Of a stretch of 64,000 nucleotides of DNA, positions 9,757 through 45,829 are shown piece after piece. The stretch spans positions 1 to 64,000 of the forward strand of contig NZ_VDGI01000017.1 in the NCBI RefSeq assembly GCF_006861825.1. Direction: 5' to 3'. Positions within the stretch are counted from its first letter, which is position 1. Each line of letters opens with the position of its first letter. Both the position numbers and the translations under genes were made by a program. The notes beneath the pieces were generated by a model, which saw only the letters and a list, made by a program, of their open reading frames with translations, ran no database searches and had not been told where the DNA came from. This DNA comes from Psychrobacillus vulpis (GTDB lineage: Bacteria > Bacillota > Bacilli > Bacillales_A > Planococcaceae).

Positions 9757-9887
9757 AGTTGATTTCCGCTGCGGGCGAACGCTTTCCGTGGGCGTGGCTT
9801 GAGCCTCTTTGGTCGCCTACGCTCCCTAAAGGGTCTCAAGACTCACGCTATTCCCACAGGAGTCGTCGCCCTCCGCTCCAATCAACT
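9757..9887. repeat. GC-rich hairpin repeat, complete copy (subtype with AGTTGATT ends)
   Basis: The element is bounded by AGTTGATT at 9757-9764 and AATCAACT at 9880-9887. Inner arms pair as GTGGG/CCCAC, GCGTG/CACGC and CTTGAG/CTCAAG, so the whole 131 bp can fold as one hairpin. Confidence 0.8.
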
Positions 9888-9890
9888 AGT

Positions 9891-10103
9891 GCACTGAAAA
9901 AAACTAGGTGATGGATAAGTTAACAATACTCCATAGATAAGAAAAACGTTGAAATGGCTCCCTTTCCGTGGGCGTTGCCTCAGCCTCCTCGCTTCGCTGT
10001 GGGGTCTTCGACTAACGCTATTCCCACAGGAGTGTCGCCTTTTTCAACGATTTTCTAGAAAAGAAAAAATATTTTTCATAAAAAATAGACAGTTTTTCAG
10101 TGC
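9891..10103. mobile_element. Non-autonomous element with GCACTGAAAAA terminal inverted repeats (copy 1)
   Basis: GCACTGAAAAA at 9891-9901 and TTTTTCAGTGC at 10093-10103 bound 213 bp that contain a GC-rich hairpin repeat and no plausible gene. Two similar units of nearly the same size occur at 44738 and 44968. A further GCACTGAAAAA starts at 10120, sixteen bases after this unit. Confidence 0.55.
9940..10056. repeat. GC-rich hairpin repeat (subtype with AGAAAATCGTTGAAA ends)
   Basis: The ends AGAAAAACGTTGAAA (9940-9954) and TTTCAACGATTTTCT (10042-10056) are complementary with one mismatch. Inner arms pair as GTGGG/CCCAC and GCGTT/AACGC. It lies inside the 213 bp element at 9891-10103. Confidence 0.8.
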
Positions 10104-10171
10104 TCTTACTACGTTAAGGGCACTGAAAAACTCTAATTAGTATTTTTGTAGGAACTATTTGCTGTATTTAT

Positions 10172-10306
10172 TTAAGAGAATTTAGCGCGACGCATGAGAC
10201 TCCTGCGGGAAAGTGAGACAGACGAGACCCCGCACGAAGCAGAGCGAAGGAGGAGGCTCGTCGCTCGCCCGCGGAAAGCGAATGCCAAAGCGATAAATTC
10301 TCTTAA
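10172..10306. repeat. GC-rich hairpin repeat, complete copy (subtype with TTAAGAGAATTTA ends)
   Basis: A perfect 13 bp terminal inverted repeat (TTAAGAGAATTTA at 10172-10184, TAAATTCTCTTAA at 10294-10306) encloses CCTGCGGG and CCCGCGG arms. The orientation is reversed relative to the copies at 9757 and 9940. Confidence 0.8.
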
Positions 10307-10350
10307 CGACTATTTGAAAGAAAATTTATTAGAATAACACTTTTTAAATA

Positions 10351-10423
10351 GCCTCCACGCTTCGCTGCGGGGTCTTCAGCTAACGCTATTCCGGCAGGAG
10401 TGTCGCCTTTTCAACGATTTTCT
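10351..10423. repeat. GC-rich hairpin repeat, right half only
   Basis: This piece matches the right two-thirds of the copy at 9940, from GCCTCC through CTTCGCTGCGG to TTTTCAACGATTTTCT, and lacks the left arm. Its CCGGC differs from the CCCGC/CCCAC of intact copies, as expected once a pairing partner is lost. Confidence 0.7.
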
Positions 10424-10501
10424 AGTTTTAGACAAGCCCATCTTGTTCCAGTTATTTGAAGTTTATTAATTTATTTTTTCGTCTCCGTCTAGTCCACAGT
10501 C

Positions 10502-10538
10502 TGAACAAACCTATTCACAATCAATGAATAGGTTTGTT
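10502..10538. repeat. Hairpin, right member of an inverted pair; possible end of the mccB transcript
   Basis: GAACAAACCTATTCA pairs perfectly with TGAATAGGTTTGTTC around a seven-base loop, eight bases beyond the mccB stop. No T-run follows on the minus strand, so it would be an atypical terminator. A diverged inverted partner lies at 9711-9748. Confidence 0.5.
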
Positions 10539-10546
10539 CAAAATCA

Positions 10547-11680
<1,134 letters not shown>

Positions 11681-12613
11681 TTATTTCTCCTCCATAAATA
11701 AATCATATATTTTCTGACTTAAATAACGTTCGCTCGAATCTGGAAAAATCGTTACTATATGACTTCCTTCTTTTGCGATTTCTGCTTCTTTCAGTGCCGC
11801 GTAAAAAGCTGCTCCAGAAGAACTTCCAACTAGCAGACCTTCTTCTCTCGATAGTTTTTGCAATTGATGAAATGCATCCTTGTCACTAACAGTATGAATC
11901 CCATCAAAGTAAGAACGATCCATAAAGGTTGGTAAAAATTCCATACCAATCCCTTCCGTCACATGCGATCCAGCAGTTCCACCATTCAAAATCGATCCGA
12001 TTGGTTCCACAATTACCGTTTTCACATTTACATTTCGTTCTTTTAAAAATGTAGAAGTTCCCATGAATGTTCCACCAGAACCTGCCCCAGCAATAAACAC
12101 ATCTATTTGACCATCTAAATCACGCCATAATTCAGGGCCAAGTGTTTTTGTATAAGTATATGGATTTGCAGGATTAGAAAATTGAGATGGCGAAAAAGCA
12201 TTTTGTGTCCTCTCAACCAACTCACGTGCTTTATCAATAGCACCTTGCATTCCTAAAGAAGTATCCGTATTCACAATTTCTGCACCCAATGCTCGCATAA
12301 GGGTCTGTTTTTCTGTACTAAATTTTTGAGGCACGACAAAAATTACTTTATACCCTTTACCTATTGCAGCAAGGGCTATACCAATTCCAGTGTTTCCGGC
12401 AGTAGGCTCAATAATTGTTCCACCTGCCACAAGCTTCCCGGACTTTTCAGCATCTTCTATCAAGGATAATCCGAGACGGTCCTTCACACTACCGCCTGGA
12501 TTCAAATACTCCAACTTCGCAAATATTCTACAATTATTTGGAATCGGAATATGAGTAATTTCAATAGTAGGTGTATTTCCTACTAATTCTTGTACACTGC
12601 GATAAATTTTCAT
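11681..12613 (-). CDS. mccA: Cystathionine beta-synthase, O-acetylserine-dependent
   Basis: This 310-residue PLP enzyme of the cysteine synthase family has Lys44 in GGSVKDR as Schiff-base residue, TAGNTG at 71-76 for substrate and GAGSGGT at 176-182 for the phosphate. MccA condenses O-acetylserine with homocysteine to cystathionine; plain cysteine synthase would look similar, but the neighbours favour MccA. The ATG overlaps the luxS stop by one base (TAATG), indicating translational coupling; GAGGAA lies six bases upstream. Confidence 0.85.
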   Translation of the reverse strand: MKIYRSVQELVGNTPTIEITHIPIPNNCRIFAKLEYLNPGGSVKDRLGLSLIEDAEKSGKLVAGGTIIEPTAGNTGIGIALAAIGKGYKVIFVVPQKFSTEKQTLMRALGAEIVNTDTSLGMQGAIDKARELVERTQNAFSPSQFSNPANPYTYTKTLGPELWRDLDGQIDVFIAGAGSGGTFMGTSTFLKERNVNVKTVIVEPIGSILNGGTAGSHVTEGIGMEFLPTFMDRSYFDGIHTVSDKDAFHQLQKLSREEGLLVGSSSGAAFYAALKEAEIAKEGSHIVTIFPDSSERYLSQKIYDLFMEEK

Positions 12614-13083
12614 TACGCTTCCTCTTTATAAATTTGTCGCCATTCCTCTTTTTTCGAAAGCATTTCTATAGCGATTTCTTTTGCACCTTCTAAGCTATGG
12701 CTTGCTGCCCAACCACATTGCACTTCATTACAAGCTGGAACTTCTGTTGCTTCCAACACATCTTGCAATGTCTTTTCTAAAATCTCTAAAATTTCATCAT
12801 AGTTTTCAAGATTAATAACCGATAAATAAAAACCAGTTTGACATCCCATTGGACTAATATCCACTACTTGTTCTGTATGATTACGTATATTTTCCGCCAT
12901 TAAATGCTCTAATGAATGCAAGCTTGGCATTTTCATATGTTCTTTATTTGGCTGCTTAAAACGAATATCGTATTTGTAAATTTCATCTCCATGAACGCCT
13001 ACTTTTGTACCTGCTAAGCGAACAAATGGTGCCATAACCTTTGTGTGATCTAGGTTAAAACTTTCAACATTCATTTTTTTCAT
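12613..13083 (-). CDS. luxS: S-ribosylhomocysteine lyase
   Basis: LuxS cleaves S-ribosylhomocysteine to homocysteine and DPD, the precursor of AI-2. The metal ligands are His56 and His60 in HSLEH and Cys123 in VQCGW; catalytic Glu59 and Cys81 (MGCQTG) are present. The 156-residue form starting [10 protein letters not shown] matches the staphylococcal type. The ATG at 13083 is chosen because AAGGAG lies eight bases before it; the ATG at 13089 is only two bases from the site. It sits in the slot that mtnN occupies in the B. subtilis yrrT operon. Confidence 0.95.
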
Positions 13084-13085
13084 TT

Positions 13086-13739
13086 TCATAGCTCCTTATT
13101 TTTCGACGCATCCATTAACCAAACAAAATCATTCATTTTTGTAAAGCTCACATGAAAACCTGCCTCTTCGAATAATTTAGTTAGTATGGGAATGGTCGTA
13201 TAATATTCTCTTTCTAAATCGTCTGCTACGTGATGAAAACCACGATTTCTCTCTTTTGCAATTTGTGCTTGCTTTGCTTCTTCTGTAATAAAAACAGTAT
13301 CCGCAAAAACGACTTTACCATTTGTAGGCAAAAGCTTTGCATACTCTTTCAATGCTTCTCCTTTTTCATCGTCTGTTAAATGATGAAAAACATATGAGCT
13401 AACAATTGCATCTATACTTTCTATACCCACATTAAATTGGAGTAAATCGCCATCTAATACCTCAATAGAAGGAAATCGTTCTGATGTAATTTTACGCATC
13501 ATTGTATTTGGTTCAATACCAATGACCGAAACGCACGTTTCTAGTAACTTAGCTGTTAAATTTCCAGTACCAGTTCCAAATTCAATAACTGTGCCTGATA
13601 CTCGATTAGCTACTTCATTCAATATATTGTCATATCCATCAAACACATCTCGATACTCAGGATCCTCTCCTGAAACAGATGCATCATATGAATGTACCCA
13701 CTCATCGAAAATATCTATAAATTCTCTTCCCATAAACAA
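13086..13739 (-). CDS. yrrT: YrrT-like SAM-dependent methyltransferase
   Basis: The 217-residue class I methyltransferase has motif I as [16 protein letters not shown] near residues 49-64, preceded by the YrrT opening [14 protein letters not shown]. YrrT heads the operon for recycling S-adenosylhomocysteine to cysteine in B. subtilis; its methyl acceptor is unknown. The stop lies two bases before the chosen luxS start. A good extended -10 promoter lies about 65 bases upstream. Confidence 0.85.
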
Positions 13740-13800
13740 ACCCCTTTTTTAAAATATATTATTCCGAGTTGAATACTTTGCTTTAGGCTTAATATAAATA

Positions 13801-13828
13801 GTTATAACATATTCAAATAAATTGTCAA
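13801..13828 (-). promoter_or_regulatory. Sigma-A promoter of the yrrT-luxS-mccA-mccB operon
   Basis: On the minus strand TTGACA (13828-13823) is followed after 16 bases by TATAAC (13806-13801), with TG one base before the -10 (extended -10). It reads toward yrrT. A CymR operator is expected from B. subtilis but cannot be asserted here. Confidence 0.65.
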
Positions 13829-13966
13829 ATATGAAAATCGAAAGCGACACTGGTATTTAATCTTGATAGGCTAGAATATTGACTGTCACTAAACACTCTT
13901 CGTTTAAGTGGATATTTATTGTCCAAACTAACCTAAATTAGAGCAATACTACTAGGAGTACTATAC

Positions 13967-14001
13967 AAAAAAAGAGCCCCTCCTATTTAGGAGAAACCCT
14001 C
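13967..14001 (-). terminator. Leftward terminator-like hairpin without an obvious gene
   Basis: On the minus strand GAG..CTCCT-aaat-AGGAG..CTC is followed by seven T residues. No leftward gene lies directly upstream of it on that strand; the nearest feature to the right is a rightward small gene. Confidence 0.5.
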
Positions 14002-14009
14002 TACTTCTA

Positions 14010-14378
14010 TTGTATGCAAGTTTGTTTTATATCTACGGGCGGCTTGTTAAAGCTATAGAAATTATTAAAGACTACATAAGGAAGAACAAATATGAGATGA
14101 TAATGATACTAGATTATATGGAGGATGAAGTCATTTTGAGGTTCTGGAGTTTCTTTTTCGCATTTATCATCGCAAAAATCATATTGGAACAGTCGATTTT
14201 GAAGTTTGACTTTTTCCAATATAGTTTATTTAATAACTTTACTTGGATTAAGTTATTAAGTTTAATAGTAGAAGTAATCATCTTTTCAGTAGTATTTATC
14301 GTTTTTTATTACTTATTTACAAACTTCAGCAAATGGAAAATGCGTATCAAATATGAGTTAGCTCAGAAAAAGAAGTAA
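14010..14378 (+). CDS. Small membrane protein of unknown function
   Basis: Two hydrophobic segments (about residues 46-62 and 84-104 counting from 14010) and a basic tail KWKMRIKYELAQKKK suggest a two-helix membrane protein. The start is unclear: the ATG at 14010 has no ribosome-binding site, while a TTG at 14136 lies 11 bases after GGAGG. The stop lies inside the following terminator stem. The family is not recognised. Confidence 0.5.
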   Translation: MYASLFYIYGRLVKAIEIIKDYIRKNKYEMIMILDYMEDEVILRFWSFFFAFIIAKIILEQSILKFDFFQYSLFNNFTWIKLLSLIVEVIIFSVVFIVFYYLFTNFSKWKMRIKYELAQKKK

Positions 14379-14414
14379 CTTCCCCGAGAACACTGAGAGG
14401 AAGTTACCTTTTTT
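14375..14414 (+). terminator. Rho-independent terminator
   Basis: GTAACTTCC at 14375-14383 pairs with GGAAGTTAC at 14399-14407, followed by CTTTTTT. It serves the rightward small gene; the facing acetyltransferase gene may use the same stem. Confidence 0.85.
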
Positions 14415-14416
14415 GT

Positions 14417-14920
14417 CTATTTTTTATTACTTAAATTATATCCTTCATTTATCGCATCCCAATTAAGTGGTCTAGCCATGCTGTTTTCAATCCATTCCAA
14501 TGGCTTAAAACCAAATTGTGCATAGAGAGAATGTGCATCTCTCGTACCTAAGTGGAAGCTTGTTCCTTTTAACTTAGGATGTTCAGTAATGATACCCATT
14601 AACCATTTGCTAAGACCACGTCCTCTATAGTCCGGAAGTATGAAAACATCCCCTAGCCAAGAATATCTCACTAGATCAGACACAACACGCGCGAAACCAA
14701 TTTGTTTTGGTGAGCCAGTAGTTGGATTTCCGTCATAAATTCCGTAACAAATAATCGAATTATCAATAGATGCTACTATTAATTCTTTCGAAACACCTGT
14801 AAGCCAATAAGACTCTTTACTTAAAAAATTATGTATAACTTCAACATCTAACAAACTTTTATCAGTACTAATAAAAAATCCATCTTTGTTTAATAACTCT
14901 TGTTGTTCATTCACTAACAT
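14417..14920 (-). CDS. GNAT-family N-acetyltransferase
   Basis: The 167-residue GNAT protein has the acetyl-CoA loop DYRGRGLSKWLM near residues 97-108, after strand GDVFILP. A QFGFKPLEW segment near the C-terminus is typical of this group. GGAGG precedes the ATG. It forms a leftward pair with the membrane protein gene upstream (25-base gap). The substrate is unknown. Confidence 0.78.
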   Translation of the reverse strand: MLVNEQQELLNKDGFFISTDKSLLDVEVIHNFLSKESYWLTGVSKELIVASIDNSIICYGIYDGNPTTGSPKQIGFARVVSDLVRYSWLGDVFILPDYRGRGLSKWLMGIITEHPKLKGTSFHLGTRDAHSLYAQFGFKPLEWIENSMARPLNWDAINEGYNLSNKK

Positions 14921-14945
14921 TTTTGTTCCTCCAATAGAATTTCCA

Positions 14946-15383
14946 TCATTCTAAAATTTGATAGTCCTTTGTTTTAATGAAAGCTATATCATTTTCATCA
15001 GAAAAGTTGACGAGTTCTTCGAATATATGCGTTGGTGAAAAATCAAAAAGGCGAATATTAAACCCCTTTCTCACCTGTATAATAGCTCCCTTAGTTGCCC
15101 ATCCAAAACGCTTGAATTTCATTTGCTTAATTTGATATGGATGAATTACTTTTTTATAAATAGGTATTATCCAAACAAAAACCTGATACGTTAAATGTTT
15201 TTCGGCTATATTCATTCGATACTGAATAAGAAATGATAGTAAAATGAAAAAAAGTAGTGCAATTATAAAATACGAAAAGCCATCAGAAAAGTTACTTGAT
15301 TGTCTATTCGCCAAGCCTACCCATCCAGTTACTACAAGCGATACAAACAAAACAGATTTCTGGGTTGTTGCATGAAAAGTCAT
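14946..15383 (-). CDS. Membrane protein with a possible bacterial PH-like domain
   Basis: In this 145-residue protein, residues about 10-27 and 35-53 are hydrophobic. The rest (IAEKHLTYQVFVWIIPIYKK, then IHPYQIKQMKF and GFNIRLF) looks like the beta-rich bPH-like segment found after paired helices in many Firmicute membrane proteins. That resemblance is by eye only. AAGGTGAG lies upstream of the ATG. It is probably co-transcribed with the acetyltransferase. Confidence 0.5.
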   Translation of the reverse strand: MTFHATTQKSVLFVSLVVTGWVGLANRQSSNFSDGFSYFIIALLFFILLSFLIQYRMNIAEKHLTYQVFVWIIPIYKKVIHPYQIKQMKFKRFGWATKGAIIQVRKGFNIRLFDFSPTHIFEELVNFSDENDIAFIKTKDYQILE

Positions 15384-15500
15384 TTTTCTCTCACCTTTTT
15401 CAATAATAAAAGTATTTCTTGTTGCCCTGTCTATCTTTGCTTATATGCTCCTTACACCTAGTATTTATCTAAAAATTCTAATATAATATTAACCTACCTA

Positions 15501-15509
15501 TGTTATAAT
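15501..15509 (+). promoter_or_regulatory. Extended -10 promoter element
   Basis: TGTTATAAT gives a perfect TATAAT with a TGn extension, about 90 bases upstream of the small gene at 15598. No good -35 hexamer is visible, which an extended -10 can tolerate. Confidence 0.45.
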
Positions 15510-15597
15510 TGTAAATACTTACCTACAAATACAATCGTTACTATTTCATTAGAACTGAAGTTTAGTATCATCTATTTTTCAAAAAAGGGGTAATAGA

Positions 15598-15738
15598 ATG
15601 GGAAATCTTGAAAAGGAATATCCAATTTTAAAAGAGGATCGTCGACGAAGTGAGAGTAAGAACAAAAACATTAAATCACTAATTCTACTAGGAATTGGAT
15701 TTGCTAGTATCCTTATTAAGCTTTTATTCTATAATTGA
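15598..15738 (+). CDS. 46-residue single-helix membrane peptide
   Basis: An ATG at 15598 lies eight bases after AAAAAAGGGG. The peptide begins MGNLEKEYPILKEDRRRSES and ends in a hydrophobic helix (SLILLGIGFASILIKLLF). The charged front and single C-terminal helix suggest a tail-anchored membrane peptide. It sits 32 bases before the S66 peptidase gene in the same direction and may be co-transcribed. The family is not recognised. Confidence 0.55.
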   Translation: MGNLEKEYPILKEDRRRSESKNKNIKSLILLGIGFASILIKLLFYN

Positions 15739-15770
15739 TTTTGAAAATAATTTTAAGGAGAATCTAATCA

Positions 15771-16772
15771 ATGACATTGTTGAATCGCATAAAACAAGGG
15801 GACAAGATTGGGATTTACTCCCCTTCGTCCCCAATCACTTTTTCTTCACCAAAACGATCTAAGCGAGCTATTTCATTTTTACAATCTAAAGGCTTTGAAA
15901 TTGTAGAGGGGTGTCTAACTGGCAAGCATGATCATTATCGCTCTGGAACTATTCAAGATAGAGCAAACGAATTAAATGAGCTTATAAGAAATCCAGACAT
16001 CAGCTGTATTATGTCAACGATTGGTGGAACTAATTCTAATGCACTCTTGCCTTACATTGACTATGAAGCTTTTAAGAAGAATCCTAAAATCATGATTGGT
16101 TATTCGGATGCGACAGCAATTTTATTAGGCATTTATGCTCAAACCGGAATACCAACATTTTACGGTCCAGCTTTAGTGCCTTCATTTGGGGAATTTGAGC
16201 CATTTGTTCATAATACATATGAGTATTTCAGTGAAATGTTAATAGAGGAACAATGTATTCCTTTTACAGTTCCTACTCCCCCTTACTGGACTGATGAACC
16301 TCTTAATTGGGAGGTAAAAACTGATGATAAACAACAGAGACCAAATGAATGGAATTGTGTAAATGAAGGTTCTGCACATGGAAGATTAATTGGTGGGAAT
16401 CTAAATGCAATGTATGGTATTTGGGGAAGTCCTTATATGCCAGTCATACAAGAAGGAGATATTCTTTTAATTGAGGATACGATGAAAACGGCATCTGTTG
16501 TTGAAAAGAATTTTAATCTTTTAAAATTGAACGGTGTATTCGACCGTGTATCTGGAATTATATTAGGAAAACATGAGCTATTTGATGATCAAGGGACTGG
16601 AAGAAAGCCATATGAAATTTTAGCGGAAACAATAGGCAAAATGGAGGTTCCAATTTTAGCAGACTTTGATTGTTGCCATACCCACCCAATGCTAACGATG
16701 CCTATTGGACGTAATGTAAAATTAGATGCAACGAATAAAGAAGTAACTATTATGGAGCATTGGATTAAATGA
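15771..16772 (+). CDS. S66-family peptidase (LD-carboxypeptidase / MccF-like)
   Basis: The 333-residue protein shows the S66 Ser-Glu-His triad: Ser112 in GYSDATA, Glu235 in LLIEDT and His303 in the CHTHPMLTMPIG region. S66 enzymes include LD-carboxypeptidase A, which trims muropeptide tetrapeptides, and MccF, which inactivates microcin C-type nucleotide peptides. The YSDAT-type motif and length fit the MccF-like branch. AAGGAG precedes the ATG. Its stop overlaps the next gene's start (ATGA). Confidence 0.85.
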   Translation: MTLLNRIKQGDKIGIYSPSSPITFSSPKRSKRAISFLQSKGFEIVEGCLTGKHDHYRSGTIQDRANELNELIRNPDISCIMSTIGGTNSNALLPYIDYEAFKKNPKIMIGYSDATAILLGIYAQTGIPTFYGPALVPSFGEFEPFVHNTYEYFSEMLIEEQCIPFTVPTPPYWTDEPLNWEVKTDDKQQRPNEWNCVNEGSAHGRLIGGNLNAMYGIWGSPYMPVIQEGDILLIEDTMKTASVVEKNFNLLKLNGVFDRVSGIILGKHELFDDQGTGRKPYEILAETIGKMEVPILADFDCCHTHPMLTMPIGRNVKLDATNKEVTIMEHWIK

Positions 16773-17320
16773 TGAATATACAAGCGGTATTCATTGATCG
16801 GGATGGCACTATTGGTGGCACTGGGCATTTTATTCATCCAAAGGACTTCAAACCTTATGACTTTAGCCAAGAAGCATTTCAATTGCTTAAAGAACATGGA
16901 ATCAAAACCATTGCATTCACAAATCAACACCGAATAAGTCGAAAAGAAGCTTCTATTCAGGAATTTCAAGAAGAGTTTAATACTTATGGCTTTCATGATG
17001 CATTTATTTGTCCTCATAGTGAAAATGATAATTGTAATTGCCATAAACCTAGACCAGGAATGTTATTAGATGCTGCTCGTAAACACAATTTAGACCTTAA
17101 GAAGTGTGTAGTGATCGGGGATGTTGGGTTAACTGATATGTTGGCTGCTCATGCAGTTGGTGCAATGAAAATATTAGTTTTAACTGGGTGGGGGCCAAGT
17201 TCCTTGACTCAATATCGAGAGGCTTGGAAGGAAGCTCAACCGGATTTTATAGCGGAAAATCTGTTGGAAGCTGTTCAATGGTTGTTAAATAATCATACAA
17301 AAATGCAGGGAGGAACGTAA
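16769..17320 (+). CDS. HAD-IIIA family hydrolase (histidinol-phosphatase-like)
   Basis: Motif I is FIDRDGT (Asp10, Asp12), motif II is in AFTNQ, the lysine is in CNCHKPRPGM and motif IV is VIGDVGLTDMLAA. The Cys-rich CNCH segment resembles the zinc loop of HisB-N/GmhB-type phosphatases. It acts on a small phosphorylated metabolite; the substrate is unknown. It is translationally coupled to the S66 peptidase gene by a four-base overlap and is followed by a strong terminator. Confidence 0.82.
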   Translation: MMNIQAVFIDRDGTIGGTGHFIHPKDFKPYDFSQEAFQLLKEHGIKTIAFTNQHRISRKEASIQEFQEEFNTYGFHDAFICPHSENDNCNCHKPRPGMLLDAARKHNLDLKKCVVIGDVGLTDMLAAHAVGAMKILVLTGWGPSSLTQYREAWKEAQPDFIAENLLEAVQWLLNNHTKMQGGT

Positions 17321-17338
17321 TCCTCTCTGCATTTTTTT
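17301..17338 (+). terminator. Rho-independent terminator
   Basis: AAATGCAGGGAGGA pairs with TCCTCTCTGCATTT, followed by a T-run. The stop codon of the HAD gene lies in the loop. Confidence 0.85.
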
Positions 17339-17410
17339 CATTTCTACATCTAGTACCCCAATAAGATTATCGTTTTTAGTGAAAATGGAACACGGTATTT
17401 GTATTAAATC

Positions 17411-17797
17411 TTATTTAATGATTGACTGTAATGCCTCTTTTAATTCAACTCTAGCCTTGAATACACCAAAAATCTTTATTGAATTTATTGTTTTTAGTGC
17501 TAGTTCTTGCTCTATGTCATCGGATAACACGAGCATTCCAACAACTTTAATAGAGAGGCTTTTCTTTTCATTTAAAAGTTTTTCAAGTGTTTTACGATTA
17601 TAAATACTAACTCCCATAATAAAATGCTTTTGTGTGATCACTTGATCCACGACTTGGGAGTGAGTAGTTAGCTGATTTCGAATTGATGTTTTAATAAAAT
17701 CGGTACGATTAGAATAAAAGCCCTGCTCAATTAATAAATCTACTTTCCCCAAATCCACTACATTCATATTAATCGTTATTTTTTCCGTTTCCGCCAT
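17411..17797 (-). CDS. Ribbon-helix-helix (CopG-like) protein with a C-terminal domain
   Basis: Residues 6-45 (KITINMNVVDLGKVDLLIEQ, then GFYSNRTDFIKTSIR) fit a ribbon-helix-helix DNA-binding domain: a short strand, then two helices with a SNRTDFI turn. The remaining 80 residues form a small alpha/beta-looking domain of unknown role. It is probably a local transcriptional regulator, but no target site was recognised. AAGGGGATGG lies upstream. It stands alone between the HAD gene and a hairpin repeat. Confidence 0.65.
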   Translation of the reverse strand: MAETEKITINMNVVDLGKVDLLIEQGFYSNRTDFIKTSIRNQLTTHSQVVDQVITQKHFIMGVSIYNRKTLEKLLNEKKSLSIKVVGMLVLSDDIEQELALKTINSIKIFGVFKARVELKEALQSIIK

Positions 17798-17861
17798 CTC
17801 AACACCATCCCCTTACCATCCATTTTCATTAGTCTATCACACTAAAATAATTATTGAAAGC

Positions 17862-17998
17862 AGTGATTTCCGCTGAGGGCGAACGCTTTCCGCGGGCGTG
17901 GCTTGAGCCTCTTTGGTCGCTATGCTCCCTGCCAGCGAAGCGAGGAGGCTAAGGCAACGCCCGCGGAAAGGGAGCCATTTCAACGATTTTCTTATCTA
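17862..17998. repeat. GC-rich hairpin repeat, chimera of two left halves
   Basis: The left part matches the left half of the copy at 9757; the right part is the reverse complement of the left half of the subtype at 44801. The join still gives a perfect 14 bp stem, CTTTCCGCGGGCGT at 17886-17899 with its complement at 17957-17970. Confidence 0.75.
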
Positions 17999-18049
17999 TA
18001 TTTTTAAAACTCCGTCTGGCCAAGCAGATTATAGGGACTTTCCTCTTAA

Positions 18050-18095: not shown

Positions 18096-18118
18096 GAAAA
18101 TTCCACATGTATGTTTTT

Positions 18119-18880: not shown

Positions 18881-18881
18881 A

Positions 18882-22380: not shown

Positions 22381-22392
22381 TCTTTTTGAGGG

Positions 22393-22476
22393 ATTGAGCG
22401 ATTTCTCGTGATCATTGAGCGATTATCTGCAAAGATTGAGCTATTCCAGCGCATCATTGAGCGATTCACCAATAAA
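22393..22476. repeat. Four tandem 21 bp repeats (attgagcgatt core)
   Basis: The core ATTGAGCGATT (third copy ATTGAGCTATT) starts at 22393, 22414, 22435 and 22456, exactly 21 bases apart; the second half of each unit is variable. One frame on each strand stays open across the units (IERF.. or NRS..), but neither has a start with a ribosome-binding site. Confidence 0.85.
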
Positions 22477-36500: not shown

Positions 36501-36522
36501 TTGTTTTCTCTCCTAACAAAAA

Positions 36523-36545: not shown

Positions 36546-36591
36546 TCTAGTCATTATATTACTCCGATCTTATATACATTGCAAGCTTTTT

Positions 36592-38450: not shown

Positions 38451-39121
38451 CCATTTACCTCAAAACGATAGCCTATTCCCCAAACAGTTTCGATGTATTT
38501 CGAAGCAACCTTCCCTAATTTTAAACGCAATGTTTTAATATGCGTATCTACTGTTCGAGTCCCACCTTCATAGCCTATTCCCCAAAGCAGTTCTAGTAGT
38601 TGATCCCGAGAAAAGACCTTTCCTTCGTTCTCCATAAAAAGAAGCATGAGTTCATATTCTTTTAATGTAAGAACAAGCTTTCTATCTTCACTTTTTACTT
38701 GTCTTGCGACTGTGTCAATTTCAATTATCCCTTTGGTTAAGACGTCGCTATTTGTTGAAATTCCAGTTCTTCTTAGAAGTGCATTGATTCTCGCAGTTAG
38801 TTCTATTGCAGTAAAAGGTTTTACAATGTAATCGTCCCCGCCAAGCTCAAGGCCTTTTACTAAATCACTTTTTGCATCGAGCGCAGTTAAGAAAATAATG
38901 GGTACCTGCGAAAATCTTCTAATTTCTTTGCACACAGTAAAACCATCTTTTTTTGGCATCATAACGTCCAAAAGAACAAGATCTATATCCCTTTTTTGAA
39001 CAATTTGAATTGCATCATCCCCATCTTCTGCCTGAACTACTTGAAGTCCATCTTTTTGCAAATGCATTTCGATTAATCTTCGCATATCCCGTTCATCATC
39101 TACTACTAATATAGTCGTCAT
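38447..39121 (-). CDS. OmpR-family response regulator
   Basis: The 224-residue protein has a receiver domain with Asp52 in LLDVMMP and VVDDE, and a winged-helix output domain with the recognition region EGGTRTVDTHIKTLRLKLG. GAGGTGAG lies upstream of the ATG. It is coupled to the kinase and to the upstream lipoprotein gene by ATGA overlaps. Targets are unknown; the operon's own promoter is a natural candidate. Confidence 0.88.
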   Translation of the reverse strand: MTTILVVDDERDMRRLIEMHLQKDGLQVVQAEDGDDAIQIVQKRDIDLVLLDVMMPKKDGFTVCKEIRRFSQVPIIFLTALDAKSDLVKGLELGGDDYIVKPFTAIELTARINALLRRTGISTNSDVLTKGIIEIDTVARQVKSEDRKLVLTLKEYELMLLFMENEGKVFSRDQLLELLWGIGYEGGTRTVDTHIKTLRLKLGKVASKYIETVWGIGYRFEVNG

Positions 39122-40062
39122 TTGCTCACCTCCCTTGTAACTAGCTGAAATGGACCCTTTCCAACTTTAAGTTTTTCTATTATTTTTCCATTTTGTAAAA
39201 AGTATACTTGATGATCATCATATCCTGCGACAACGATGCAATCTTCAAAAGCTTTAATCGAAAAAGGATTCGCACCAACTTTAATAGACGAAAGGAGCTC
39301 TCCATCCTTTGAAAACTCAGATACATTGTTACTACCATGACTAACAGTAAAAATATTTCCATCGGAAGTATCTGTGAAATCTATTGGCATCATTGGTGCT
39401 TCTATTTCACCTTGCAGTTCACCACTAACCAAATTATACTTTCGAATGACCTTGTTTGGCTGACTACCTGCACCGTGTCCACCAAGCCATAGCTCATCTC
39501 CATTCAAATAAAGACCATGGGAAGAGGTTGGTATATTCCATGTTCGATCTAATTTTAAATCTCCTAATGAAAAAACAGACATAAGCGTATCTTTGAAATT
39601 TACAACGTACAAATACTGTTCATCTGCAATCATGGACATTGGATATCTTCCTGCATCGGCTTTCGCAATTTCATTTCCCTTTATATCAAATGAAGTAACA
39701 GTATTCTCTTTTCCATTTGCTACATAAATAGTATCTTCTACTGCATATGCAAACGTAGTTCCTTCATGAACTGGAAATGAAGTGATTTTTTTACCTGTAG
39801 ATAACTGGATGAGTTCTGCTCTATCTAAAGAGTAGCCATAGAGAAAAATATAATCATTTAAAACAAGTGTGAAGCCCGTGTATGCGGCATCCAATTTCCA
39901 TGTCTCGATTACTTCTTGATCTTTTGATATAAAATCAATAGATGAATCTAATGTGTTTAAACTCGCAACAAAATCAGTGGACGAATCAATGGAATTATAT
40001 GAGTTATCTGAACAAGCTACAAGAATCCAGCTTAAAAATAATAAGTCTAATATTTTTCTCAA
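39118..40062 (-). CDS. Lipoprotein with a YncE/SMP-30-like beta-propeller
   Basis: TTG at 40062 is the likely start: AAGGAGG ends eight bases upstream and the product then begins MRKILDLLFLSWILVAC with Cys17 as lipid-modified residue. The mature 298 residues are repeated blades such as SMIADEQYLYVVNFKDTLM and KVGANPFSIKAFEDCIVVAG, like YncE-type propellers. It probably folds outside the membrane as a binding or sensing protein. It is the first gene of the operon. Confidence 0.7.
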   Translation of the reverse strand: MRKILDLLFLSWILVACSDNSYNSIDSSTDFVASLNTLDSSIDFISKDQEVIETWKLDAAYTGFTLVLNDYIFLYGYSLDRAELIQLSTGKKITSFPVHEGTTFAYAVEDTIYVANGKENTVTSFDIKGNEIAKADAGRYPMSMIADEQYLYVVNFKDTLMSVFSLGDLKLDRTWNIPTSSHGLYLNGDELWLGGHGAGSQPNKVIRKYNLVSGELQGEIEAPMMPIDFTDTSDGNIFTVSHGSNNVSEFSKDGELLSSIKVGANPFSIKAFEDCIVVAGYDDHQVYFLQNGKIIEKLKVGKGPFQLVTREVSK

Positions 40063-40267
40063 AAATTCGCCCTCCTTTCTTCCTATTCTATCGAAGATGT
40101 GTGAAAAAAGTTTGAAATACAAACGAAAGATTTTTTACGTTTAAAAACAGATTCTCGTGGACACTCATCTGTATTTGAGAGTTGTCAGCTGAGCGATGGA
40201 GCCTCGACGTAAAAACACTTGTAGAAAATTATCCAAATGTACAATATTTTATAATTTCCTAAAGCGT

Positions 40268-40315
40268 AAAAAAATTGTCCCAAAAGCCAATATTACATCG
40301 ACTTTTAAGACAACT
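40268..40315 (-). terminator. Terminator after hemH
   Basis: On the minus strand TTGTC..AAAAG pairs with CTTTT..GACAA, followed by seven T residues, about 40 bases past the hemH stop. Confidence 0.7.
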
Positions 40316-40353
40316 TACTGAAAATTAATATTAGATTACTGTCTCAATGATGA

Positions 40354-41283
40354 TTAAGCACGAAGTTGTTTTAATACTACATCTGCCATTGCATCGATGA
40401 ATAAAGCTTGATCATTAGGCATTGCTGGTCGAATATATGTAGCACCGATTTCATCACAAACAACTTTACATTCATAGTCGTTATCGTAAAGTACTTCTAA
40501 GTGTTCTGCAACGAAACCAACTGGAGTGTAAACAAAAGTTGTAAATCCTTTTTCTTCATGCAATTCACGTGTTAAATCTTGTACGTCTGGACCAATCCAA
40601 GGTTCTGGTGTTTGTCCCGCACTTTGCCATCCAACTGCATAGTTCTTCACACTTGAAGCTTTTGCGATTAAATCTGCAGTTTCGTTCAATTGGTCTGCGT
40701 ATGGGTCACCCATCGCAAGAATTTTTTCTGGTAAAGAATGTGCTGAAACGATTAAACAAGCTTTGTCACGTTGCTCTTCCTTCAATGAAGCAAATGCTTC
40801 ACTTACTTTCTCGCTCCAATATTGGATAAACTTCGGTTCGTCATACCAGCTTTCTACTGAAGTAATTTTTAGGTTACCAAGTTTCTCTGCTTCTTCTTTA
40901 ATACGACCGTTATACGATTTAATAGAGAACGTTGAGAAGTGAGGCGCTAACACAATAGAAACGGCTTCTGTAATTCCATCCTTATGCATTTGTTCCACAG
41001 CATCTTCCAAGAAAGGTTCAATATGCTTTAAACCAATGTACACTTTGAATTCAATTTCATCTTGCACTTCATTCAATCGTTTACACAGACCTTCTGCTTG
41101 GTTTTGCGTAATTTTCGCTAACGGAGAAATTCCTCCAATAGCTTTATAACGATTTGTTAAATCTTCTAACGCTTCCTCGCTTGGTTTACGACCATGTCTA
41201 ATATGCGTATAGTAGCGTTCAATATCTGCTTCTTCGTATGGTGTCCCATATGCCATTACTAATAGTCCCATTGTTTTTTTCAT
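40354..41283 (-). CDS. hemH: Ferrochelatase (coproporphyrin ferrochelatase)
   Basis: The protein of about 309 residues aligns by eye along its length with B. subtilis Hem[43 protein letters not shown] with the metal-site His, SAHSLPEKI and [13 protein letters not shown] with the acidic metal ligand. In Gram-positive bacteria it inserts iron into coproporphyrin. The ATG at 41283 has GAGGTG at suitable distance. It follows hemE by 20 bases. No hemY follows, unlike B. subtilis hemEHY. Confidence 0.95.
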
Positions 41284-41303
41284 GATTGTCACCTCTAAAA
41301 AGT

Positions 41304-42356
41304 TTAGTTAGATTTTGCTGCAATAAGTTCTTTACTATATTCATGAATAAAAGTTGTTAAACGTTTTAATGTATCAGGGTTTACTTCTGGGAAAACACCG
41401 TGTCCAATATTAAAAATATGTCCCGGTTGAGCAACACCTTGTTCAATAATTACTTTTGCTCGTTTTTCAATTTCTGCCCAATCAGCTATTAAGAAGGATG
41501 GATCTAAGTTACCTTGAAGAGGCTTCGTCATTCCTTTTGCACGAGCTTCCTCAATTGATAAACGCCAATCTAACCCTACTACGTCAACAGGTAGATCATG
41601 CCATTCCATTGCTAAATGACTCGCTCCAACTCCAAAAGTGATAAGTGGTACACCAGTTTCACGAAGTTCTGAGAAAATACGTGTCATAATAGGTTTAATA
41701 AAGATTCGATAATCTTCTACATTTAAAGCTCCTACCCATGAGTCGAAAATTTGAATCGCTTTTGCTCCAGCTTTTACTTGAGCTTTTATATAAACAATAA
41801 TCATATCCGCAAGCTTGTCCATTAAAGTGAACCATGCTTCTGGTTCAGATACCATAAATGCTTTTGTTTTGTTATAGCTTTTAGATGGGCCGCCTTCAAT
41901 CATATAACTTGCTAAAGTAAAAGGCGCTCCTGCAAAACCGATTAATGGAACATTTAACTGTTCAGTTGTTAACAATTTAATCGTTTTTAATACAAAAGGC
42001 ACATCATCTTCTGGAGATAAATCACCAAGATTGTGCACATCTTGTACGGTACGAATTGGATTAGAAATGACTGGACCAACACCAGCTTTTATTTTTACAT
42101 CTACACCAATACCTGGAAGAGGTGTTACAATATCTTTATACAAAATTGCAGCATCTACGTTGTAATTTTCAACTGGTAGACGTGTAACATATGCACATAG
42201 CTCTGGCTCATGCGTAATTTGCTCTAATGAGTACTTTTCTTTTATTTTTCTATATTCCGGTTGAGATCTTCCCGCTTGCCTCATATACCAAACTGGGGTG
42301 TGCGTAACTTGTTCTCCTCGTGCAGCACGAAGTAGTGTATCGTTAAAAGTTGTCAT
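41304..42356 (-). CDS. hemE: Uroporphyrinogen decarboxylase
   Basis: The protein of about 350 residues has the N-terminal UROD signature [16 protein letters not shown] and the later [17 protein letters not shown]; the catalytic Asp is in [10 protein letters not shown]. It converts uroporphyrinogen III to coproporphyrinogen III. The start at 42356 ([11 protein letters not shown]) fits family length and follows AAGGTAGG. It is the first gene of hemE-hemH. Confidence 0.95.
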
Positions 42357-42420
42357 TCCATTTTTTCCTACCTTTCTTCTCATATCAAATTTACTTTGGC
42401 TTATTTTACTCCTGCGCAAG

Positions 42421-42525
42421 CTCGTCGTAGAAACAGTTCATCAGCTTTCTCGATGTATTTCTTTATAAAATCTGTGCCATCAGCCAGGGGATTAACCTAA
42501 TTCAACAGGCAATAGGGCACACTAC
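42421..42525. repeat. Dispersed intergenic repeat (TCTGTGCCAT..GCCAG family)
   Basis: The stretch around 42468-42506 (TCTGTGCCATCAGCCAGGGG, then TTAACCTAATTCA) matches 57914-57953 with a few substitutions. Both copies lie in intergenic DNA upstream of leftward genes. It belongs to a third repeat family, distinct from the hairpin repeats. Confidence 0.55.
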
Positions 42526-42806
42526 TAAAATGGATAATTTTTTCTAAATCTTCACACCATTTTTAGAACTGCATGACTGCTACAACTAATGCTTCGCTTT
42601 CATATCACCAAACATTTGCTTTATAAGGTTACTTGTTATCTATTCAAATATACGTTTCCACTATAGCCTTTCTCTCCTTTATTGTATATATATATAGTGT
42701 AATTGTCATAAATTTGTCCTGTATTTCCAGTCTTTATTTGGACAAAGAGTTTTTAAACATTCATAAATGGGAAAAGTAATAGAAATATTAAATTGGAGGA
42801 CTTAGT

Positions 42807-43298
42807 ATGAATTTTTATATGACATCTGGAACACCTGAATTTATGGAATCACTAAAAGCAAAATACGCAAAGGAAGACATGTATCATCTTCATGGATTAG
42901 GAAACTCCGTATTAATACATGAAACCTCTGGAAAATCCTTTTTTCAAGCTCCAAGAAAATTTGAGGTAATGGAAACTTTAGGTCAATTGTCCGAGAAAGG
43001 ATATTTCGTTTTACAGCATGTACCCGTCTCGGAGGAAGGTCGTCCCATTTTTGAATATAAGTACACACATTTAACAAGTACTATAGAAAGAGAACCTGGA
43101 TTCATCGCACTTCGTGTTTTAAAACCGATTAAATCGGACACGTATATTATATTAACTCAGTGGACTGGTTCAAACAGTTTTGATGTATGGCAGAAATCAG
43201 TAGCATTTGACTTCGATAAAATTGCAGATAAACAAAAATTGTTTACGAGTGCACCATACATCTCCACCTATAAGTCCATTAAAAACGAGGAAGCCTAA
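42807..43298 (+). CDS. hmoB: Heme-degrading monooxygenase, HmoB-like
   Basis: This 163-residue protein ends in an ABM-type ferredoxin-like domain (about 75-150: REPGFIALRVLKPIKSD, TYIILTQWTGSNSFDVWQKS), matching B. subtilis HmoB/YhgC. HmoB opens the heme ring and frees iron. Its position divergent from hemE matches the B. subtilis order (yhgC beside hemEH). GGAGG precedes the ATG. Confidence 0.85.
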   Translation: MNFYMTSGTPEFMESLKAKYAKEDMYHLHGLGNSVLIHETSGKSFFQAPRKFEVMETLGQLSEKGYFVLQHVPVSEEGRPIFEYKYTHLTSTIEREPGFIALRVLKPIKSDTYIILTQWTGSNSFDVWQKSVAFDFDKIADKQKLFTSAPYISTYKSIKNEEA

Positions 43299-43314
43299 TA
43301 AAGGCTTCTTTTTT
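43289..43314 (+). terminator. Terminator of hmoB
   Basis: GAAGCCT pairs with AGGCTTC, followed by a T-run; the stop codon is in the loop. Confidence 0.82.
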
Positions 43315-43356
43315 CTGCTATAATGTAAGCAATATATTAAATGGAGGGTTAAGAAA

Positions 43357-44529
43357 ATGAACATGGAATTAGTAGAAAAGCTAGATTGCGCTTTTGAAGA
43401 TATGGTAGTTATTCGCCGTTACTTACATATGCATCCAGAGGTTTCATTTAAAGAAACGAAAACTGCCCAGTATATTCAAGATTTTTACGCAGATTTAGGT
43501 ATTCCGTTTCAAGCAAATGTAGGAGGCAATGGAGTTGTAGCAAGAGTGAAAGGTGCTAAACCTGGTAAAACAGTAGCGCTTCGAGCAGACTTTGACGCTC
43601 TTCCAATTCAAGATGAAAAAGATGTACCTTATAAATCTACAGTTGATGGTGTAATGCATGCATGTGGACATGACGGACATACAGCTGCATTACTTATTCT
43701 TGCACGAACAATGAATCAATTAAAAGAACAGCTAACTGGTGAATATGTATTTGTCCATCAGCATGCAGAGGAGTATGCACCTGGTGGAGCAAAACCGATG
43801 ATTGAAGCTGGTTGTTTAGATGGAGTAGACGTTATTTTTGGTACTCATCTATGGTCATTAATTCCTTTTGGGACTATTGAGTACAAATCGGGTCCTATTA
43901 TGGCTGCAGCCGATCGTTTTGAAATTACAGTGCAAGGTAGAGGCGGGCATGGTGCAAATCCCCACCAAGCAAAGGATGCAATTGTTGCAGCTTCTCAACT
44001 TGTTGTCAACTTACAGCAACTTGTATCTAGACGAGTAAACCCTACGGAATCTGCTGTACTTTCAGTCGGTTCATTTGTAGCGGAAAATGCATTTAATATT
44101 ATTGCAGATTCAGCAAAACTTGCTGGTACAGTGCGTACCTTTAATCCAGAAGTTCGTGATTTAATGGAAAATGAGTTAAAACGTGTTATAGAAGGTACTT
44201 GTATTGCAAATGATTGTACATATTCATTCAAATATGACCGAGGATACCCACCAGTTATTAATCACAAACTAGAAACTGAATTTCTAGAAAAAGTTGCAAG
44301 TGAAGTCCCTGGGGTAGAAAATGTGCAGGAATCTATTCTTCATATGATAGGTGAAGACTTCGGCTATTATTTAGAAGAAATTCCAGGAACATTTTTCTTT
44401 ACAGGCGCAATGCCTCAAGGAGAGGTTTTCCCACATCATAGCCCGAAATTTGATTTTGATGAACGAGCAATGCTCCTTGCTGCAAAAACACTAGGTTTAG
44501 CTGCTATTCAATATCAAAACGAGGAATAA
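43357..44529 (+). CDS. yhaA: M20D amidohydrolase (N-acyl-L-amino-acid amidohydrolase type)
   Basis: In this 390-residue protein the metal ligands are Cys103 and His105 in HACGHDGH, Glu138/139 in QHAEEYAPGG, His164 in FGTHLW and the C-terminal His in FPHHSPKFDFDE. A lid domain (about 185-290) contains QGRGGHGANPHQ. The enzyme removes acyl groups from N-acyl amino acids or related amides. GGAGGG lies seven bases before the ATG. In B. subtilis yhaA is also beside the ecs genes. Confidence 0.88.
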   Translation: MNMELVEKLDCAFEDMVVIRRYLHMHPEVSFKETKTAQYIQDFYADLGIPFQANVGGNGVVARVKGAKPGKTVALRADFDALPIQDEKDVPYKSTVDGVMHACGHDGHTAALLILARTMNQLKEQLTGEYVFVHQHAEEYAPGGAKPMIEAGCLDGVDVIFGTHLWSLIPFGTIEYKSGPIMAAADRFEITVQGRGGHGANPHQAKDAIVAASQLVVNLQQLVSRRVNPTESAVLSVGSFVAENAFNIIADSAKLAGTVRTFNPEVRDLMENELKRVIEGTCIANDCTYSFKYDRGYPPVINHKLETEFLEKVASEVPGVENVQESILHMIGEDFGYYLEEIPGTFFFTGAMPQGEVFPHHSPKFDFDERAMLLAAKTLGLAAIQYQNEE

Positions 44530-44622
44530 AGAAATCTCAAATCTAATTTGATAGTTTATTAGAATCAACCATAATCTGGATTACTTTAGTTTGGATTATT
44601 TCTCTACTACACTATTAATACG

Positions 44623-44662
44623 AACCGAGGAAGTGACACAGTCATTTCCTCGGTTCTCTTTT
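44623..44662 (+). terminator. Terminator of the M20 amidohydrolase gene
   Basis: AACCGAGGAA pairs perfectly with TTCCTCGGTT, followed by CTCTTTTTT. Confidence 0.88.
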
Positions 44663-44737
44663 TTGGTAATCGTGTAGAGGATGTTGTATCCGTCGCACTC
44701 CAGTAATTTTGAGCCTCTACGTTCACTATGCTCATGG

Positions 44738-44951
44738 GCACTGAAAAAGTCCCTATAATTCGACTTTGCCAGATGAGGTAGTCCAATATTCCAATAAATA
44801 AGAAAATCGTTGAAGCGGCTCCCTTTCCGCGGGCGTTGCCTCAGTCTCCTCGCTTCGCTGCGGGGTCTTCGGCTACACTATTCCCGCAGGAGTGTCGCCT
44901 TTTTCAACGATTTTCTAGTATTTTCTTAAATAATTGACAGCTTTTCAGTGC
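44738..44951. mobile_element. Non-autonomous element with GCACTGAAAAA ends (copy 2)
   Basis: GCACTGAAAAA at 44738-44748 and CTTTTCAGTGC at 44941-44951 bound 214 bp, nearly identical in size to copy 1 at 9891 (213 bp). The interior again carries one hairpin repeat (44801-44916). Confidence 0.55.
44801..44916. repeat. GC-rich hairpin repeat, intact copy
   Basis: The ends AGAAAATCGTTGAA and TTCAACGATTTTCT are perfect complements; inner arms are GCGGG/CCCGC, where the copy at 9940 has GTGGG/CCCAC. Confidence 0.82.
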
Positions 44952-45028
44952 TTCAAGCGTAGGGAGGGAACTGAAAAAGTTACTATAATTCTGCTTTACC
45001 AGATGGGTGTCCAATATTCCTATAAATA

Positions 45029-45313
45029 TGAAAATCGTTGAAACGGCTCCCTTTCCGGAGGCCACTGAAAAACCAAAATTCAGAAAATAAAGTCACCACT
45101 TGAGAAGTATATTTGTATCAAAATTGGCATGACGTCCCCATAAACACCCTAAAAAGTGAAGGAATTATGGGATTTCGTTTTTATTTTTTGAAAAAAAATG
45201 ACTTTTTCAGTGGCCTCCCTTTCCGCGGGCGTTGCCTTAGCCTCCTCGCTGCGCTGCGGGGTCTTCGGCTAACGCTATTCCCGCAGGAGTGTCGCCTTTT
45301 TCAACGATTTTCT
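45029..45313. repeat. GC-rich hairpin repeat split by a 162 bp insertion
   Basis: The left arm (45029-45056) and the remainder (45219-45313) join into a copy like that at 44801, with GCGGG/CCCGC and GCGTT/AACGC stems. The insertion point is after CTCCCTTTCC. Confidence 0.78.
45057..45218. mobile_element. 162 bp MITE-like element
   Basis: Perfect 16 bp terminal inverted repeats, GGAGGCCACTGAAAAA at 45057-45072 and its complement at 45203-45218, enclose AT-rich DNA with no gene. CTTTCC is duplicated on either side (45051-45056, 45219-45224), and the flanks reconstitute an intact hairpin repeat. This is direct evidence of a past insertion. Confidence 0.8.
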
Positions 45314-45710
45314 AGAAATGAAAAAGTATTTATACTAAAAATCATACTATTTTGCAGTGCCCTCGCTATACACCCTGCAGGCTCTTAAGACTCATGCATT
45401 CCCACAGGAGTCTTCACTCCCCGTTCCAAATCAACAAGTTCTATGAAAAATGGGTATAATGACGAAAACAAATCAATCAACGTTAACAGCTGAAAATGCT
45501 AACAATGGAGCAGTATATTTAATTTCTTTAATTCCACCTTTTCAAATTTTTCAAAAGGTAACCGATTACAGCTTCCAACTATGTACTAGATGGGCTTGCC
45601 GAAAACTAATTAAACGATTGTTATCATTTCTATTTGATTGAGTTTATGATTTCGGCTTCTTGTCACCATTTCACATCAACTCAAGATTAAAATAGAAAGG
45701 TAACAATAGT

Positions 45711-45829
45711 TTGGAGAAGCGTCCGCTCGACTCCTGCGGGAAAAGCGAGGCAGACGAGACCCCGCACGAAGCAAAGCGAAGGAGGAGGCTCGGAGCTCGT
45801 CCGCGGAAAGCGAGCGGTTAGCTTCGGAA
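45711..45829. repeat. GC-rich hairpin repeat (GGAGAAGCGTCCGCTCG subtype)
   Basis: The ends TTGGAGAAGCGTCCGCTCG and CGAGCGGTTAGCTTCGGAA are imperfect complements; inner arms CCTGCGGG and TCCGCGG pair with one G-U. Confidence 0.75.

Follow-up and report, generated by a model that had tools for sequence, protein, structure and literature searches.

What is the GC-rich hairpin that recurs in the first 64,000 nucleotides of contig NZ_VDGI01000017.1 of Psychrobacillus vulpis (GCF_006861825.1; 4,024,205 bases in 76 contigs), and why do its paired arms change together from copy to copy? The stretch 1-64,000 is referred to here as the window; genomes, loci and other contigs carry G, L and C numbers. 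The hairpin is a module of 115-140 bp with constant internal motifs, CTCCTGYGGGA and CCRCGGAAAG, and with stems that are variable yet matching. The reading we favour, with a probability of about 0.6, is that it is a structured module of mobile elements, spread by their transposases, whose clearest home is the leader of IS1182-type insertion sequences (ISs), and which would act both as a shield and as a landing pad.

The module is abundant and has a defined taxonomic range. A strict core pattern (CTCCTGYGGGAA-N40-70-CCRCGGAAAG) matches 234 times in the P. vulpis genome and its reversed form not at all; a looser pattern matches 258 times there and is present in 140 of 200 genomes of the family, from 16 of 19 genera, again with no match to the reversed pattern. 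Copy numbers per genome run from 0 to 26 in congeners and stand at 95 in G156 and 91 in G165. In a sample of the phylum the pattern occurs in 2 of 299 genomes, P. vulpis itself and one member of the same class (G466, 13 copies). The hairpin is also seen in named loci of Planococcus, Fictibacillus, Halobacillus and Oceanobacillus, which had been fetched by LuxS, and in five plasmid records from the genera Priestia, Peribacillus and Radiobacillus; the phage records searched with the B-type hairpin yielded no match. The LuxS protein is 91% identical to that of Psychrobacillus sp. OK032, and neighbouring genes align as well, in keeping with the genus. Out of the 258 pattern matches, 141 distinct P. 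vulpis copies with flanks were sorted by script into type A (84; arms AGAAAATCGTTGAAA), type C (34; TTAAGAGAATTTA), type E (8; TTTGGAGAAGC) and type B (3; AGTTGATT); 12 remained unsorted, several of them B or E by eye. Two B copies (L007, L202) are accompanied by an apparent decayed transposase start, and L007 additionally by an IS-type end (by eye).

The fold of the module is conserved. We aligned 46 cores from P. vulpis and 31 other genomes, namely 45 of 63 representatives (less than 90% alike, chosen by script) and one window copy; the 18 representatives left out comprise three with unusual apical loops, and six from P. vulpis and nine from G156/G165 of kinds already included. Under a 24-pair structure, 82.2% of 1085 cells are paired (68.7 +/- 0.7 when shuffled), and 18 of the 24 pairs show double-sided changes. 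There are 163 double-change cells, against 53.2 +/- 6.4 in shuffled alignments (none of 500 as high) and at most 55 when the structure is slid; the structure was drawn from this same alignment and is thus favoured over its slid versions, and neither control removes relatedness. Judged by shuffles and slides in this way, the hairpin covaries as a structured RNA family does. Further pair types do not rise above the shuffles (83/500), the pairs 24-79, 33-69 and 36-66 are formed in a minority of sequences, and RNAalifold, applied alone, recovers 16 pairs, 9 of them with double changes. The window had first been described in a sequence-only reading, which noted a switch of the inner arms between GTGGG/CCCAC and GCGGG/CCCGC and proposed a covariation check on copies from the whole genome and its relatives; the alignment bears out the covariation, and the switch persists across 240 distinct copies, which were collected with a pattern free at both tested bases (second pair of the basal stem: C-G 215, T-A 12, T-G 7, C-A 6; Fisher p 1.4e-11, the copies not being independent). 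The compensatory change is real and strong, and the folded form has therefore been maintained. That reading suggested selection on, or spread through, the folded form; the copies do not bear out the spread, as they lie in transposon-ended units wherever such units can be defined.

Covariation without selection would be expected if template switching, in the replication of a near-palindrome, copied one arm from the other, the copies then spreading as passengers. We regard this as unlikely. One P. vulpis copy (L071) has A-type cores inside C-like outer arms, and the window copy at 17862..17993 (repeat families D4 and D7; fold) is a chimera of a B-type left half and an inverted A-type right half; hairpin halves and arms are therefore exchanged. 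The outer arms, moreover, are unrelated between families, yet closely matching, and tandem arrays at orthologous sites differ in copy number between the sister genomes G156 and G165 (1 vs 3). However, the motifs next to the basal stem, CTCCT and GGAAAG, stay constant where the stems vary (a contrast partly built in, as the search pattern required most of these letters), and pure palindrome correction would not predict the fixed position and orientation that the hairpin takes in IS1182 leaders.

This leader position is found in several genera. In G049 each of the six copies is placed after the IS end and before the transposase start (MTKNQTNEREQLEM...), 240 bp from a DUF772 match and in the same relative orientation; in G031, for which 10 of 15 DUF772 matches were listed, the distance to such a match is 362 bp for 9 of 13 copies, also in the same relative orientation, and a tenth copy of the same type has no counterpart among the matches listed. 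Of 30 DUF772 loci chosen by their transposase, one per genome and from six genera, 12 have a hairpin within 700 bp upstream in sense and one in antisense (sign test p 0.003, loci taken as independent); the 1400 bp downstream contain none in sense and one in antisense. The IS1182 model NF033551 (cut-off 270) recognises the transposases of L250 (367 bits), L298 (473) and L341 (374), a 207-residue frame at L324 of G049 scores 202 bits and is below the cut-off, and the remaining loci are assigned to IS1182 by their DUF772 match only. The full-length IS1182 transposase gene of P. vulpis (L250, 492 residues) is preceded by an E-type hairpin; its left end directly adjoins the left half of an A-type hairpin, and the contig stops just past the gene, before the right side. 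IS ends are defined on the left for L250, and at one end each for G031 and G049. On plasmid NZ_CP133764.1 of Peribacillus sp. R9-11, a hairpin at 224770-224899 stands immediately ahead of an IS1182 family transposase annotated, independently, at 224984. When 30 loci from 30 genomes are instead chosen by the hairpin, six have an IS1182 transposase gene or remnant within 1.5 kb, all six on the expected side and strand; the remnants at L279, L281 and L282 look like internal deletions.

A hairpin that follows the IS end and precedes the transposase gene in one shared orientation would work for the element. Most likely it blocks activation of the transposase gene by transcription entering from the host; alternatively, it may fold in the leader. 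In L338 (the gene of L250), L341 and L342 the hairpin is separated from the start codon by a TATAAT box, as would suit a shield. In a second IS1182 subgroup the script showed no such box in the six loci that it reached, L322, L323 and L335 lying outside its scope; this would suit a leader RNA. Selection on the folded leader would produce the compensatory changes. Where the transposase gene is lost, miniature elements and solitary hairpins would remain, and these solitary hairpins would in turn offer related elements a harmless intergenic landing pad; repeated landing in them would build nested clusters such as those of the window.

Units with transposon-type ends enclose hairpins in P. vulpis, G031, G049, G015, G156 and G165. 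In P. vulpis, 27 of the 33 C copies and 35 of the 58 intact A copies (62/91 together) are bracketed by CACTGAAAAA-type ends (at most two mismatches), as against none (C) and one (A) with shuffled flanks; for A copies with an insert the count of 15/29 carries no weight, since the insert brings ends of its own. The same type of end also precedes the IS1182 gene at L250, that of L350, where the transposase is 69% identical, and the DUF772 locus L345. The A and C units thus have IS-matching terminal inverted repeats and no transposase gene, as miniature inverted-repeat transposable elements (MITEs) do.

Other vehicles carry the hairpin as well. The seven copies fetched from G015 are all 208-bp units with GG(G/C)TCT-type ends, whose flanking 8-mers are identical in three, agree at 7/8 in one and at 6/8 in three; we call these ends ISL3-like, the family name serving as a label only. 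In G156 and G165, 13 of 17 K-type hairpins have a GTGCCAGGCAC-like palindrome on either side; among B-type hairpins this is true of 1 of 33, and among the others of 2 of 8. Arrays hold more than half of the K copies, and there one palindrome is shared by two neighbours. The two sister genomes share long aligned blocks, 89-94% identical, and their fetched stretches hold 18 hairpin clusters, 7 of which have both flanks in the partner stretches and represent four sites (the cluster at L257 18543 has its left flank only). None of these four is a clean empty site, the hairpin being in both genomes with one copy decayed, and exact ends are not obtained thereby; the intact copy number differs at three of the four. 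Empty sites were also sought in four Psychrobacillus loci, with which the surroundings of the window cluster at 9.7-10.4 kb did not align.

IS1182-type ends are, in addition, concentrated at one site of the hairpin itself. The P. vulpis genome contains 146 GGAGGSCACTGAAAAA ends, of which 115 lie directly against a member of a class of 64 hexamers (of the 4096 possible) to which CTTTCC and GGAAAG belong; among the matches listed, all but one read exactly CTTTCC/GGAAAG. Inserts enter the base of the hairpin at a single point and have the six bases on either side, as at 45051-45056 and 45219-45224 of the window, and CTTTCC flanks short inserts on both sides; further units are inserted in apical loops (L251). 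This concentration suggests that the hairpin is also a landing pad for IS1182-type elements.

The cluster at 44710-45433 shows such nesting, a B-type hairpin being apparently split by two A-type units, one of which is itself split by a short insert. The probable left piece of the B-type hairpin (44710..44736, placed by eye) is followed by unit 1 (44736..44951; ends GGGCACTGAAAAA and CTTTTCAGTGC), which encloses an A-type hairpin on the minus strand (44801..44916, core 44823-44892; sequence, core pattern and fold), then by unit 2 (44967..45362, by eye; ends GGAACTGAAAAAG and TTTTGCAGTGCCC) and by the probable right half of the split hairpin (45361..45433; repeat family D9, by eye). Within unit 2, the minus-strand A-type hairpin consists of a left part (45029..45056) that terminates in the duplicated CTTTCC and a right part (45219..45313, core 45219-45289; sequence and core pattern), separated by a 162-bp miniature element (45057..45218; ends GGAGGCCACTGAAAAA/TTTTTCAGTGGCCTCC) that lies within the hairpin base, with CTTTCC on both sides; its end and insertion site are the same as those of L250. 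Downstream, an E-type hairpin on the plus strand (about 45709..45833, core 45731-45810; arms TTTGGAGAAGC/GCTTCGGAAAA; sequence and fold) has arms identical to those of the leader hairpin of L250, and a shortened E-type copy follows on the same strand at 45927..46012 (repeat family D10, fold).

The second cluster starts with a B-type hairpin on the minus strand (9757..9888, core 9782-9862; arms AGTTGATT/AATCAACT). Next to it lies an A-type unit (9890..10103) with the IS1182-like ends TGCACTGAAAAAA (9890-9902) and TTTTTCAGTGC (10093-10103), enclosing a minus-strand A-type hairpin (9940..10056, core 9962-10032; arms AGAAAAACGTTGAAA/TTTCAACGATTTTCT), and then a C-type unit (10118..10340), with the left end GGGCACTGAAAAA (10118-10130) and a truncated right end, around a plus-strand C-type hairpin (10171..10308, core 10200-10278; arms TTAAGAGAATTTA/TAAATTCTCTTAA); the units were recognised by sequence, the three hairpins by sequence, core pattern and fold. 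The right part of a further A-type hairpin (10345..10427; repeat family D1, fold) closes the cluster. Near the start of the contig, a complete plus-strand hairpin (525..660; arms GCCCGCCAC/GTGGCGGGC; fold -70.5 kcal/mol) has a long stem-loop, AAAGACACTGGCC/GGCCAGTGTCTTT, at about 573-616 in place of the apical loop, and is preceded by a degenerate, diverged copy (205..372, no strand assigned; fold -60.4 kcal/mol).

The core of the sequence-only reading is confirmed for the window, with some corrections. The degenerate copy at about 205-372 is additional to the copies it named, and outer arms that are specific to a subtype and complementary within a copy are true of the six complete copies (525, 9757, 9940, 10171, 44801 and about 45707). 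These six also fold end to end, as had been claimed, with energies between -42.1 and -70.5 kcal/mol, where random 130-bp windows (n = 200) have a mean of -18.8 and a standard deviation of 6.5; the chimera at 17862 does not, as its inner stem is intact and its outer arms are unmatched. The copy at 45029 is not truncated but is one A-type hairpin split by the 162-bp insert, and the fragments at 44710-44736 and 45361-45433 read, by eye, as two pieces of one B-type hairpin.

Tandem arrays and a set of smaller repeats were also observed. P. vulpis has A-type tandem units at C13:77-1473, C44:77.5-78.9 kb, C9:64.0-65.1 kb and C12:66.4-67.5 kb; some of its A-type tandem arrays are near contig ends or runs of N, and their assembly may be incomplete. 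The tandem arrays of G156 and G165 (for example L171, L181, L262, L268 and L270) repeat the hairpin together with local flank in units of about 200-270 bp. Direct repeats of 21 bp (GATTGAGCGATT type) occupy window positions 22392-22466, immediately 3' of an amino-acid permease-like gene.

A second alternative is modelled on REPINs, the palindromic repeats mobilised by RAYT transposases: a single-copy RAYT-like (Y1) transposase would directly mobilise the hairpin as folded single-stranded DNA. We hold this to be quite improbable, although an enzyme whose gene tracks copy number, as the sequence-only reading had suggested seeking, is indeed found in this group. P. vulpis has one RAYT-like gene (NCBIfam REP_Tyr_transpos, 74.1 bits, under the cut-off of 80). 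Such a gene is present in 95 of the 200 family genomes, where the median is 4 hairpin copies vs 1 elsewhere (p 7e-6), and none of 5000 within-genus permutations gives a link as high (in the same 200 genomes, with no unrelated transposase as control). The palindromes around the K-type hairpins likewise speak for such a system. However, 65 of the 105 genomes that lack the gene have hairpins, with as many as 20 copies, and the core motif is absent from all 21 RAYT loci searched (the gene and some 400 bp on each side, more for P. vulpis), so that the repeat neither flanks nor adjoins the gene as it does in REPIN/RAYT systems. What is found upstream of the gene is GTGCCWGGCAC, in 8 of the 21 loci vs 3 occurrences in 1.6 Mb of background (at L052 3553-3563 on C12 of P. 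vulpis and in 7 of the 20 others, about 180-260 bp upstream); it is a candidate for the cognate repeat of these RAYTs. A palindrome of this type occurs in 1 of 282 flanks of P. vulpis copies. RAYT as a general engine was accordingly rejected, the copy-number association being real and the linkage to the gene absent. Since the palindrome near RAYT genes also bounds K hairpins, it may explain why RAYT tracks copy number, and RAYT fits the role of a third vehicle.

That the hairpin is a transcribed regulatory RNA or a two-way terminator in the service of the host is very improbable, for although it covaries, has a relative that matches Rfam Bacillaceae-1, and is enriched between convergent genes (45/106 vs 29/149 other gene pairs, p 8e-5; 108 of 110 P. 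vulpis loci, some overlapping, lie outside open reading frames called by a simple script), its copies range from 0 to 258 within one genus, the intact number differs between G156 and G165 at three of the four orthologous sites compared, and clustering at gene ends is also expected from the purging of harmful insertions. The Rfam match lies in the apical part of the degenerate copy 205..372 (249-315, minus strand, 73.7 bits, cut-off 35) and is the sole one at the gathering score in a scan of the window, no other hairpin copy reaching it; further Bacillaceae-1 matches are seen at L107 2283-2349 and 2392-2458, L084 14056-14122 and L085 20238-20305.

Several observations weigh against the module being, at heart, an IS1182 leader. 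Most hairpin loci (24 of the 30 chosen by hairpin) have no IS1182 transposase within 1.5 kb, nor do four of the five plasmid records within 2.5 kb; IS1182-like ends bracket 1 of 7 P. vulpis copies of type E and 3 of 11 of the unsorted ones; and two hairpin vehicles, the ISL3-like and the palindrome-bounded unit, are not IS1182. Conversely, 18 of the 30 DUF772 loci have no hairpin by a two-mismatch test (a diverged copy lies in sense at L340, and one in reverse at L336), and G046 has 45 DUF772 matches but 6 hairpins by the strict pattern; across genomes, the correlation between DUF772 and hairpin counts is weak (rho 0.21, p 0.03), and the RAYT-like gene follows hairpin number more closely. About 12 of these 18 loci have, by eye and with no shuffle control, a plain terminator-like stem-loop instead, the lowest-energy stretch in the same place ahead of the transposase start, often then followed by T, as would be expected if a block before the gene were generally needed; stem-loops of this kind without the complex hairpin are seen at L328, L331, L332, L339, L345, L346, L347 and L350. 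Finally, G-T mismatches exceed A-C mismatches in the CTCCTG orientation (88 vs 31 cells, but 38 vs 26 columns, p 0.17), which is antisense to the transposase and would speak against folding in the sense mRNA; either RNA or cruciform DNA may be the folded form. Given the split in TATAAT boxes, the mRNA may or may not include the hairpin at all. A broader proposal, put forward as tentative, is that of a self-provisioning transposon system: in IS1182 elements of Bacillales the leader hairpin would both control the transposase gene and be the site where relatives preferentially land, and two or more unrelated kinds of mobile element (ISL3-like and RAYT/REP-bounded) would have taken it up.

Parts of this picture have known counterparts. 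That ISs target palindromic repeats and that transposase leaders can be structured are each known separately (PMC1525189; PMC8450116). Repetitive extragenic palindromic (REP) sequences are, like the hairpin, short intergenic palindromic repeats hit by particular ISs (2006, PMC1525189); the hairpin differs in being 115-140 bp long, covarying, and itself carried by the elements that land in it. ISPpu9 of Pseudomonas putida inserts within REPs, and its transposase is governed by structure in the 5' untranslated region and by small RNAs (PMC8450116); a folded 5' region is thus common to both, but the IS and the structure are different, and the small RNAs are a feature of ISPpu9. REPINs and RAYTs (PMC3116915, PMC2817692) share with the present family high-copy palindromic repeats that are often clustered, whereas here no RAYT gene adjoins the hairpin core, and the ends around the copies are those of other transposons. 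For Methanosarcina, MITEs of IS1182 and ISL3 are listed (PMC3852290), which are similarly short, non-autonomous elements with the ends of full ISs; the units described here share one structured cargo. Bcr1 and Bhal-1 (PMC2267715) are likewise families of repeated stem-loops in Bacillus genomes, compared here by description and not by sequence, and Bhal-1 may or may not be a relative. With Rfam, the overlap is that of one related window hairpin matching RF01690 (Bacillaceae-1 RNA), the other window copies being below the gathering score. A literature search, made without most subscription journals and ISfinder, found no paper on the hairpin, its covariation, or a leader hairpin as landing site.

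For the family and its neighbours, these results turn an unexplained repeat of many genomes into a testable part of insertion sequences, and offer a case of a transposon with its own safe landing site. The compensatory stem changes are a ready set for testing RNA against DNA folding, and they carry a caution, in that covarying hairpins from genome scans can be parts of transposons and not host RNAs. If the broader proposal is true, one folded nucleic acid would be a shared part across transposon classes.

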